The notes below the pieces were generated by a model, which saw only the letters and a list, made by a program, of their open reading frames with translations, was not told where the DNA came from and ran no database searches. A program made the translations under genes and the position numbers. This document shows, piece by piece, positions 57,243-60,488 of a stretch of 64,000 nt of DNA. The stretch covers positions 134,304 through 198,303 of the forward strand of contig JAPPNP010000026.1 of the NCBI GenBank assembly GCA_028873795.1, given 5' to 3'. This stretch comes from Chloroflexota bacterium. GTDB lineage: Bacteria; Chloroflexota; UBA11872. Position 1 is the stretch's first letter; each line of letters starts with the position of its first letter.

Positions 57243-57377
57243 ATGAAACGCACGTACCAGCCCAAGGTTCGCAAACGCAAGCGTGAGCACGGCTTTCGTG
57301 CCCGCATGTCCAGCCGATCCGGGCGCGCGATTCTTCGCCGCCGGCGGCGTAAGGGTCGCAAGCGGCTCACGGTCTAG
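57243..57377 (+). CDS. rpmH: 50S ribosomal protein L34
   Basis: 44 residues, [18 protein letters not shown]... ending in a run of basic residues ([13 protein letters not shown]). The opening KRTYQPxxxKRKR and GFRARM are the family signature. First gene of the conserved rpmH-rnpA-yidD-yidC-khpB block. The usual neighbour dnaA is missing; citrate synthase lies upstream instead. Confidence 0.97.
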
Positions 57378-57425: not shown

Positions 57426-57776
57426 ATGAGCAACCGCCATCGGCTGCGCCGTGCCGCCGACATCGCACGCGTGCGGCGGCGCGGCACGCGAGTCGCCTGC
57501 CCCTATTTCGTGCTCTTCGTCGCGCCGGGCTCGGCGGAGACGACGCGCCTGGCCGTCACGGCGCCGCGCCGCCTCGGCACTGCTGTCGTGCGCAACCGCA
57601 TGCGCCGGCGCCTGCGGGCGGCGTTCCAGCCGCACCTGACCACGCGGCGTCCAGTCGTCGACATGGTGGCCCAAGCCCGCGCGCCGGTGAGCGACGCCCC
57701 CTGGGACTGCCTCGGGCGCGCCGTCGCCCAGTCCCTGGCGCGGGCGCCCGCCGCACAATCGCCGAGCCTCGCGTGA
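57426..57776 (+). CDS. rnpA: Ribonuclease P protein component
   Basis: 116 residues. The RNR signature is present as RLGTAVVRNRMRRRLR, following a basic N-terminus (RHRLRRAADIARVRRRGTR). It binds the RNase P RNA and aids 5' processing of tRNA precursors. 48 bp after rpmH, and its stop overlaps the GTG of yidD. Confidence 0.93.
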   Translation: MSNRHRLRRAADIARVRRRGTRVACPYFVLFVAPGSAETTRLAVTAPRRLGTAVVRNRMRRRLRAAFQPHLTTRRPVVDMVAQARAPVSDAPWDCLGRAVAQSLARAPAAQSPSLA

Positions 57777-57982
57777 AACGCCTGGTGCTTGCGCTAATCC
57801 GCGGCTATCAGCGGTGGCTATCCGGGGGGCTCGGGGCCAACTGCATCTACGAGCCCACGTGTTCCGAGTTTGCTCACGTCGCCGTCGAGCGCTACGGCGT
57901 GGCTCGTGGGGCGTGGCTGGCGCTGCGCCGCATCGCCCGATGCCATCCCTTCGCCGCCGGCGGCTTCGACCCGGTGCCCTAA
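57773..57982 (+). CDS. yidD: Membrane protein insertion efficiency factor YidD
   Basis: 69 residues from GTG 57773 (GTGA overlap with rnpA). Family hallmark sequence ANCIYEPTCSEFAHVAVERYG with its paired cysteines, and RCHPFAAGGFDPVP at the C-terminus. It assists the insertase encoded next, 15 bp downstream. Confidence 0.95.
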   Translation: MKRLVLALIRGYQRWLSGGLGANCIYEPTCSEFAHVAVERYGVARGAWLALRRIARCHPFAAGGFDPVP

Positions 57983-57997
57983 CCGCGGGTCTGAATC

Positions 57998-59638
57998 ATG
58001 GAAGTCTTTTCCAGCATCGGCGAAACCTGGCAGACGTGGGCCGTCAACCCACTCAGCGAGGTTCTCAATCTCATCCGCGACGGGGTCGGCAGCTATGCCA
58101 TCGCGATCATCCTGTTCACGATCGGCATTCGCACCCTCATGGTCCCGCTCACCGTCAAGCAGATCCGCTCGCAGCGGCGCATGCAGGTCCTGCAGCCCGA
58201 GATGGCGGAGATCCGCCGCAAGTACCGAAACGACCGGCAGGCGCAGTCGCAAGCCACGATGAAGCTCTACAAGGAGCACGGCGTCAGCCCGCTCTCGGGC
58301 TGTCTGCCCATCTTCGTGCAGCTGCCGATCCTGCTGGCGCTCTACGGGGGCATTCTCACCTTGAGTGGCCAGGGGCTTCTCAACGAGCAATTCCTTTGGT
58401 TCAACCTGGCGCGCGAGGACTCCACGATCCCGATTCTTGGCGAATCCAGCCCCACGGCCCCCACCGACGTGCACCTGGCGACGACGTTTCCGATCACTCC
58501 GCTCGAATCGCAGCTGTCGGCGGAGTTCGCCGGCCAGAACGCCAACTTCCGCTTCACCATCGATACCGTCGACCCCGCCGATTCGGCGGCCGCGGTCGCC
58601 AGCGGGAGCGCGAGCGCGGCGTTCGTCGAGGAGCGGATGGATCTCGCCCAGTTTCCGCCGGGCACCTCGGAAGCGCGGCTCGTGCAGGCGGCGGCTTTCG
58701 TGGTGGAGCGCGATCGACCGGTCACGAGGCTCACCGAGGCCGAAGCGGCGCGGATTCTGCGCGGCGAGATCACCGATTGGTCGCAACTCGGCTTGCCTCC
58801 CGGCCCCATCAATGTCTTTGGCCTGGGGAACGACATCGGCACGCGCGACTTGCTCTCAACGCTGCTCCTCGACGGCGAGCCGATTCCGCCGCGGACCATT
58901 CAGCTGCGGGCGACGGTCGAAGACTACGTCGCGGAACTCATTGCCGATCCGGGATCGCTCGGCATCTCCGGGCCGGTCGTCCACGACAACATTCGTATGG
59001 TCAACATCGAGGCCGAAGGCAAGGAGCGCGCCTTCTCAGCGAATGTGGCGGCGCTGCGCGATGAGAACTATTCCCTGGCCCGTGAGGCCTACGTCTATTG
59101 GGCGCCGGGCGAAACCGACGGCGAGAAGTTCGTGCAGAAGTGGTGGGACAGCCGCGAGGGTCAGACCGCCGCCGGCAACGCCGGCTTCACGCGGATTCCC
59201 ATCCAGCAAGACGTGTTTGGCCAGGGCGGCTTCTATATCTCGCTGCTGGCGCTGCTCGCCGGAGCCTTCCAGTTCGTGCAGGCCCGGATGATGGCCTCGA
59301 AGACCGCCGAGGGACAGCAGGCGACGGTGAATCGGGTCATGCAGTTCATGCCGATCATCGTGGTCATCTTCGCCTGGTCGTTCCAGGCCGGCCTGGTGCT
59401 GTATTGGGTGATTTCCAGCATCATTGCCATCGTGCAGCAATACTTCACCACCGGAACCGGCGCGCTGATTCCCGCGCACTGGCCCATCGCGCGCGATATG
59501 ACGGCTCGCCCGGCCGCCTCGACCCCGGACAAGACCTTGGAAGACAAAGCAACCAGCGAAGCGGCGAGCCAAAGCCCGGGCGAGGGCGTGGCGACGACAC
59601 CGCGGCGGCGACGACGTCGAAGGAGGCGCAGTGGCTGA
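57998..59638 (+). CDS. yidC: YidC/Oxa1 membrane insertase with inserted PstS-like solute-binding domain
   Basis: 546 residues; a plain Oxa1-type YidC of this kind is about 250-300. Residues 30-140 are the usual first part: helix GSYAIAIILFTIGIRTLMVP with the conserved groove Arg45, the cytoplasmic hairpin to 100, and helix LPIFVQLPILLALYG. Residues 410-485 complete it (ISLLALLAGAFQF, FMPIIVVIFAW, LVLYWVISSIIAIVQQ). Between them, residues about 150-405 match a periplasmic phosphate-type binding protein: LTEAEAARILRGEITDW, NDIGTRDLLSTLLL, AYVYWAPGE and WWDSREGQTAAGNAGFTRI. By topology the insert faces outside. The frame is continuous. The C-terminus is an Arg-rich tail. Known role: inserting membrane proteins with or without SecYEG. 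Confidence 0.93.
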   Translation: MEVFSSIGETWQTWAVNPLSEVLNLIRDGVGSYAIAIILFTIGIRTLMVPLTVKQIRSQRRMQVLQPEMAEIRRKYRNDRQAQSQATMKLYKEHGVSPLSGCLPIFVQLPILLALYGGILTLSGQGLLNEQFLWFNLAREDSTIPILGESSPTAPTDVHLATTFPITPLESQLSAEFAGQNANFRFTIDTVDPADSAAAVASGSASAAFVEERMDLAQFPPGTSEARLVQAAAFVVERDRPVTRLTEAEAARILRGEITDWSQLGLPPGPINVFGLGNDIGTRDLLSTLLLDGEPIPPRTIQLRATVEDYVAELIADPGSLGISGPVVHDNIRMVNIEAEGKERAFSANVAALRDENYSLAREAYVYWAPGETDGEKFVQKWWDSREGQTAAGNAGFTRIPIQQDVFGQGGFYISLLALLAGAFQFVQARMMASKTAEGQQATVNRVMQFMPIIVVIFAWSFQAGLVLYWVISSIIAIVQQYFTTGTGALIPAHWPIARDMTARPAASTPDKTLEDKATSEAASQSPGEGVATTPRRRRRRRRRSG

Positions 59639-60488
59639 CCATCCAACCGACTCCCCCGAGGCTCCGGAGAGCGTCGAAGCGTCCGGCGCCTCTGTCGAGG
59701 AGGCGCTGCGCCAGGCCCTGCGGCAGCTCAACGCCACCATCGACGATGTCGACGTCGAGATTCTGTCCAGCGGCGGCTCGCGCCTGCTGCGTCGCGATGC
59801 CGAGGCGCGCGTGCGCGTGGTGCGCCGCGAGCGACCGTTTTCCGCCACCATCGACGACGTGGAGCATGAGCCTCCAGGCGAACCCGAGGTTGAACCCCCG
59901 CCCAGAGACGCCGCGCCCATGGAGCCGGAGGTCGAACCGCCTCCGCCTGCCGCACCACCGCCCGAACCCGTGGAGGAGCCCGTCGCGGAGCAACCGGCGC
60001 CCCGAGCCCGCCAGTCGCGATCCCTGGTTGAGAGCGGCGAGGAGTTGCAGGACATCGTCGAAGACCTGCTCGTCGGCATGCTGGACCGGATGGGATTCAT
60101 CGCCGAAATCGAGCTCGTCGAAGAGGCCCCGCTCGCGTACAACGTCGTCGGCGACGACGACTTCTCCAAGCTCATCGGCAGGCATGGGTCCACGCTGCGG
60201 TCGTTCGGCTACCTCATCAACCTCATGGCCGGACGTCAGCTCGGCCAGCCGTGCCGCGTGCTCATCGACGTCAACAGCTATCGCGCCCGCCGCGCCGACC
60301 ACCTGCGCGAGCTTGCCGAGACTCTGGCCGACCAGGTGAACGAGACCCAAGAGCCCGTCACGCTGGAATCCATGCCCGCCAACGAGCGCCGGCTTATTCA
60401 CGTGGCCCTGGCCGACGACGAAAGCGTCCGCACCTACAGCATCGGCGAGGGCGATGAGCGCCGGGTCGTGATCAGCCCCAAGGCGTAA
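59631..60488 (+). CDS. khpB: KhpB/Jag RNA-binding protein (Jag-N, KH, R3H)
   Basis: 285 residues from GTG 59631, overlapping the yidC end by 8 bp, with AAGGAGG upstream. Jag-N domain at about 20-65 (VEEALRQALRQLNATIDDVDVEIL), a Pro/Glu-rich linker to 135, KH domain with the loop FSKLIGRHGSTLRSFGYLIN, and R3H domain ANERRLIHVALADDESVRTYS ending in GEGDERRVVI. A cytosolic RNA-binding protein linked to cell-envelope growth in other bacteria. Last of the rpmH block. Confidence 0.93.
   Translation: MADHPTDSPEAPESVEASGASVEEALRQALRQLNATIDDVDVEILSSGGSRLLRRDAEARVRVVRRERPFSATIDDVEHEPPGEPEVEPPPRDAAPMEPEVEPPPPAAPPPEPVEEPVAEQPAPRARQSRSLVESGEELQDIVEDLLVGMLDRMGFIAEIELVEEAPLAYNVVGDDDFSKLIGRHGSTLRSFGYLINLMAGRQLGQPCRVLIDVNSYRARRADHLRELAETLADQVNETQEPVTLESMPANERRLIHVALADDESVRTYSIGEGDERRVVISPKA

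Follow-up and report, generated by a model that had tools for sequence, protein, structure and literature searches.

A PstS-like substrate-binding-protein domain within the core of YidC in a family of Chloroflexota

Introduction

YidC is a near-universal and usually essential membrane protein insertase. A large outside domain, P1, has been described on it, the role of which is still debated, but its core is otherwise conserved. In Escherichia coli, P1 makes contact with SecF and has a cleft in which unfolded polypeptide may bind, although a large part of it can be deleted and is dispensable for insertion (PMC7618853). Lewis and Hegde, in their scheme, place the P1 domain of diderm YidCs ahead of the conserved core (PMC8675477, Table 1). 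Outside the YidC family, a chaperone-like activity is reported for the substrate-binding protein OppA (PMC7442780; PMC9967938).

Here, we describe a yidC gene in a 64,000-nucleotide stretch of Chloroflexota DNA (hereafter, the window), in which a domain resembling PstS, the phosphate receptor of an ABC importer, interrupts the core. The tests made identify the protein as a YidC, and the domain is PstS-like by profile and predicted fold, not by its ligand site.

Results

A single-copy YidC in its usual gene neighborhood

The yidC gene (57998-59638, plus strand) is a single uninterrupted open reading frame of 546 codons. The Pfam profile 60KD_IMP matched its product with an E value of 1.4e-52, in two stretches corresponding to profile positions 1-104 and 100-161, which bears out a preliminary description of this DNA in stating that both halves of the insertase are present. 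That description also noted the normal gene context, and Pfam matches and translation gave the same order, i.e., rpmH-rnpA-yidD-yidC-khpB, with all genes on the plus strand: rpmH (57243-57377, 44 residues, identified from its translation), rnpA (57426-57776, Ribonuclease_P, 1.5e-21), yidD (57773-57982, YidD, 7.3e-27), and khpB, also called jag (59631-60488, R3H, 1.5e-18, with Jag_N and KH). The genes rnpA, yidD, and khpB also adjoin yidC in other loci that we examined, one of them from the sister family. A search of the source genome, which is about 97% complete, yielded one YidC/Oxa1 gene, as well as genes for SecD and SecF. By these tests the protein is a bona fide single-copy YidC, and it would be expected to have insertase activity.

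The insert occupies the extracytoplasmic loop that joins core helices 2 and 3

Alignment with Bacillus halodurans YidC2 and other YidCs, combined with hydropathy, assigned core helix 1, the cytoplasmic hairpin, core helix 2, and an FLWFNL motif to residues 1-142 (57998-58423). Within core helix 1, Arg45 (58130-58132) is nearly invariant among 28 aligned YidCs and aligns with the positively charged groove arginine of YidC2. Core helix 2 ends at about residue 122 and is followed, on the outside, by the motif FLWFNLARED. The insert begins after this motif and stops just before core helix 3, and the remaining core, together with a polybasic tail, occupies residues 402-546 and the stop codon (59201-59638; 60KD_IMP positions 100-161 and alignment). 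The hydropathy peaks and charges fit five core helices, and YidC2 aligns with them. By contrast, a full-length AlphaFold prediction from 28 aligned rows was poor, its pLDDT of 46 being too low to place the domain relative to the membrane. The net charges of the insert-bearing loop (-20) and of the hairpin (+7) agree with the positive-inside rule if the loop is outside and the hairpin cytoplasmic. The preliminary description had put the inserted domain outside the membrane, in the loop from core helix 2 to core helix 3, and homology to YidC2 together with hydropathy predicts the same location.

At its C terminus, the protein carries a run of arginines (RRRRRRRRR, 59609-59635) that is common to the sister family and may help ribosome binding.

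The insert is a substrate-binding-protein domain of the PstS type

The inserted domain comprises residues from about 155 to 401 (58460-59200, plus strand), with inferred boundaries within about 20 bases of the limits initially proposed (58440-59205). In Pfam searches PBP_like_2 matched residues 151-372 of the whole YidC, between the two 60KD_IMP stretches (2.1e-14; 54 bits, the gathering score being 27), and matched the insert alone at 2.9e-15 (57 bits against 27). The NCBIfam model ptsS_2 (TIGR02136) also matched (1.2e-11), although its 46.8 bits did not reach the curated cut-off of 206.6. All 17 family inserts scanned matched PBP_like_2. Tested individually, so did 19 of 19 YidCs of the family and none of nine from outside it, and the identification is therefore far above chance. 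When the PDB was searched with the single sequence, Sll0540 and PstS proteins were returned, and a profile of family inserts only, built without free PstS rows, again returned phosphate-binding proteins (1.7e-8).

AlphaFold modelled the domain with a pLDDT of 86.9 and a pTM of 0.80, with the two lobes of the PstS fold both intact in the prediction. The alignment supplied to it consisted of 55 rows (15 inserts and 40 free PstS proteins), and because PstS was among them the model and the profile evidence are not independent. When the model was searched with Foldseek, the top 35 matches were all phosphate-binding proteins or PstS-type receptors (best E value, 2.7e-17), and VIA aligned it with 4jwo with a Z score of 21.2 over 251 residues and an rmsd of 5.0. 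The rmsd values of 5-9 despite high Z scores may mean that the lobes of the model stand at a different angle to each other. Embedded in YidC, the domain lacks a separate signal peptide or lipobox. These results show that the insert belongs to the type II substrate-binding-protein domains of the PstS (PBP_like_2) kind, so that the original reading of some 255 residues as a phosphate-type binding protein stands. The motifs on which that reading drew were located at residues 245-261 (LTEAEAARILRGEITDW), 278-284 (NDIGTRD), and 387-397 (EGQTAAGNAGF).

The phosphate-binding motifs have been replaced

In E. coli PstS, phosphate is contacted by T10, F11, S38, D56, R135, S139, G140, and T141 (PMC10846223), and in Xanthomonas citri PhoX by Ser34, Ser62, Asp80, Arg159, Gly164, Thr165, and Asn201 (PMC5439949). 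The corresponding motifs (GS.T, a Gly-rich loop, SR, and SGT) were almost invariant in 40 free PstS proteins of Chloroflexota. We mapped the ligand positions onto the insert by alignment, using column counts. At motif 1 (GS.T; residues 162-165, 58481-58492) the insert has TTFP, and only a Thr in place of the Ser is kept, which is invariant in the family. The Gly-rich loop (residues 191-196, 58568-58585) is lost. At the position of the ASR motif (residues 210-212, 58625-58633) the insert has VEE, with acidic or neutral residues replacing SR throughout the family. At the fourth motif (R...SGT; residues 276-282, 58823-58843) it has LGNDIGT; across the inserts the Arg is replaced by Leu or Met and the Ser of SGT by Ile, Leu, Val, or Phe. 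The Gly-Thr of SGT is retained in the first genus and gone also in the main group of the second, so that this motif reads IGTR in one and LSAP in the other.

Overall, the inserts retain 0-2 of 12 near-invariant ligand-motif positions, compared with 8-9 of 19 other conserved PstS positions. Across four lineages of the family, conservation was 0.41 in the ligand columns and 0.57 in the remainder of the domain, and 2.7% of random column sets scored as low as the ligand columns. In addition, 55 columns are invariant within the family yet untypical of PstS (e.g., R83, R94-D95-R96, W224, and W239, insert numbering), as would be expected if a new surface were in use. Judged from the alignment, these comparisons show that the phosphate-binding motifs are gone while residues of the fold are kept.

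The preliminary description had also raised the sensing or binding of a ligand. With the phosphate-contacting motifs replaced in every family member, and less conserved than the rest of the domain, ligand binding of the PstS kind is not supported, and we reject a PstS-type phosphate receptor. The description's alternative suggestion of a degenerate remnant was half right: the ligand site has been lost, but the complete domain still carries its fold signature, and purifying selection acts on it (see below). Its further suggestion of a chaperone enters into the reading preferred in the Discussion. Phosphate uptake would in any case be independent of the YidC domain, since a set of genes in the order phoB-phoR-pstS-pstC-pstA-pstB-phoU, with its own PstS, lies on another contig of the source genome (genes assigned by sequence and order, with a family search for pstS only).

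Contig C71 of the same genome encodes a second free PBP_like_2 protein (L052:877-1923, minus strand; 348 residues) with a signal-peptide-like start. It has no adjoining pst genes, and a molybdate-type ABC transporter set lies a few kb away.

Distribution and origin of the insert

The insert was found at the same place in YidC in all 19 sampled genomes of the source's family of uncultured Chloroflexota, which represent two genera. It was absent from the YidCs of five genomes of the sister family, two of these YidCs being incomplete. Elsewhere in the class, the other families have YidC frames that are unsplit and shorter. Among 400 sampled genomes of the phylum, a query with the insert found no further insert-bearing YidC. 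The best other matches in that sample were free PstS-like proteins, with identities of about 30% or less among those read. Viral contigs scanned with an insert profile contained no relatives.

Named records of the family are Chloroflexi/Chloroflexota metagenome bins, as are the majority of the genomes, and bins are where an assembly chimera or a frameshift artefact might be looked for. However, the same arrangement recurred in 19 separate genomes of two genera, in open frames of 540-551 residues without stop codons, and one of these genomes is a single 3.0-Mb contig. We regard a chimera as refuted, and the residual chance of an artefact as negligible.

In a tree of the YidC core, from which the insert columns had been left out, the family (support 97/94) and the order (100/99) were recovered and the branching followed taxonomy. 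In a tree of the insert, the family inserts formed one clade (100/100) on a long stem with no close donor. Given this distribution, a core tree that follows taxonomy, and a single clade of inserts, the phylogeny is best explained by one insertion in the ancestor of the family followed by vertical descent. A recent copy of the genome's own PstS is an unlikely source (13.8 bits, with the long stem and lack of a close donor).

Selection on the insert

Within genera, pairwise dN/dS ranged from 0.04 to 0.16 in the insert and from about 0.015 to 0.07 in the core, and one deeper pair gave 0.22 in the insert. The insert has evolved 2-4 times faster than the core, and between genera it is about 46% identical, compared with 72-84% for the core. 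By these substitution ratios, the insert is under purifying selection, weaker than that on the core. This alone is no proof of a function of the domain, because folding is required of whatever domain an essential protein contains.

Other additions in the same loop

Unrelated additions occur elsewhere in the phylum. In family f56 (genus g106; L152:1384-2826, plus strand; L153:1345-2850, plus strand; L154:451-1899, minus strand) the same extracytoplasmic loop of YidC is enlarged, ahead of the FLW motif, by a different insert of about 170 residues. This insert looks β-rich, gave no Pfam or PDB match, and belongs to no recognized family. In the sister family (f2; L038, L039, L040, and L041), about 20-30 residues that include a cysteine pair are inserted after core helix 2 and before the FLWFNL motif. 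The loop appears, then, to accept additions repeatedly in the phylum, and given the unrelated f56 insert the general story would concern the loop between core helices 2 and 3 more than this particular domain. A permissive loop of this kind would be helpful to know of when new genomes are interpreted or a site for a tag is chosen. One further YidC frame (genome G080; L158 and L164) has a run of N within the same loop. The long YidC frames of family f24 (538 residues; L149, L150, and L151) were considered as further cases and rejected, as they have N-terminal extensions only. These contain a lipobox-like motif before the core, and the f24 proteins may be lipoproteins.

Discussion

A fold that has been kept, with the residues that grip phosphate gone, argues for reuse of the domain: it seems that a domain of an importer has become an outside attachment of an essential membrane machine. 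The reading that we tentatively prefer, while rating it at somewhat under an even chance, is that the domain was exapted as a tethered platform or chaperone on the outer side of the membrane. The insertase core would work normally, through its groove with Arg45 and its ribosome-facing cytoplasmic parts, and the two-lobed domain would form a platform, permanently tethered, above the outer side of the groove. There it would most likely bind or shield extracytoplasmic segments as they emerge from YidC, or hold YidC against partners such as SecDF or Sec. This would be the role proposed for E. coli P1, reached independently with an unrelated domain at another position in the chain. Support comes from the profile and fold evidence, presence in 19 of 19 family genomes with absence from the sister family, the trees, and the dN/dS of 0.04-0.16; from the loss of ligand motifs with other positions kept, the 55 family-invariant columns, and the presence of SecD and SecF; and from precedents, i.e., E. 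coli P1 (PMC7618853) and OppA (PMC7442780; PMC9967938). Against it, a passenger that has to fold should also show purifying selection and invariant columns, and no more than about four independent lineages are available in the family. The rate of evolution of the insert is 2-4 times that of the core, and a close sister family functions without it. Much of E. coli P1, moreover, can be deleted (PMC7618853). A more specific proposal, which we consider doubtful, is a working clamp in which the former solute receptor, placed at the mouth of YidC, would close on polypeptide segments or a new ligand and thereby gate or assist insertion. Were this so, the insertase would have gained a co-chaperone of the substrate-binding-protein type in cis.

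The main rival is a folded but functionless passenger, i.e., a PstS-like fragment that landed in a permissive loop and persists, with no function of its own, as an essential protein needs it to fold cleanly. The missing ligand site and the lower constraint on the insert than on the core fit this account, and the same loop bears unrelated additions in the sister family (about 28 residues) and in f56 (about 170 residues), which argues that it is permissive. Nevertheless, the whole domain is present in all 19 genomes, without visible shortening across two genera whose inserts have diverged by about 55%, and many positions, several of them charged or aromatic, are invariant specifically in this family; we consider a passenger unlikely, though a serious competitor. 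Less probable again is a sensor, in which binding of some small molecule that is not phosphate would be coupled to YidC activity. In its favor, closing on ligands is what a two-lobed fold is made for, both lobes are complete in the model, and one Thr of motif 1 is invariant. On the other hand, ligand columns that are less conserved than the rest (0.41 versus 0.57, a value reached by 2.7% of random sets) are the opposite of what a kept receptor should show, and motif 4 is unlike between genera (IGTR versus LSAP). PstS-type proteins dock on PstCA, and since the genome has pstC and pstA, a retained docking surface might tether YidC to PstCA or a similar permease for assembly or regulation. Nothing in the data points there, and the pst genes lie on another contig with their own PstS, making such docking highly improbable.

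This sole YidC copy, to which a large unrelated domain has been added independently at a different place, offers a natural test of the role of outside domains. It further shows, in clean form, how a domain from a transport receptor can lose its ligand site and yet be retained in a different machine. The preliminary description knew of no YidC of this design, and we found none in the open-access literature, an absence that is weak evidence.

The comparison with known systems is as follows. The insert shares its profile, predicted fold, and conserved fold residues with PstS/PBP_like_2 proteins (PDB: 4jwo, 1twy, 4n13, and 9l8j), but differs from them in its lost ligand motifs, in falling below the ptsS_2 cut-off, and in being embedded in YidC. 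The f56 YidCs likewise have a large insert in the same extracytoplasmic loop, although theirs, of about 170 residues, precedes rather than follows the FLW motif and has no match to binding proteins. With B. halodurans YidC2 (PDB: 3wo6 and 3wo7), the present protein shares the groove arginine and the FLWF motif after core helix 2 and, as predicted from the alignment, the core helices and the cytoplasmic hairpin; whereas the loop between core helices 2 and 3 is short in YidC2, here it has about 260 residues and holds the PstS-like domain. With E. coli YidC, it shares the possession of a large extracytoplasmic domain, for which contacts with clients and SecF have been proposed in E. coli (PMC7618853), but the fold and place are different and the sequences unrelated, with no match to the P1 family in Pfam at E values up to 1. 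In the scheme of Lewis and Hegde (PMC8675477), the insert falls between helix H4 and the next helix. Because P1 stands before the core and the insert within it, the two domains are not positional equivalents.
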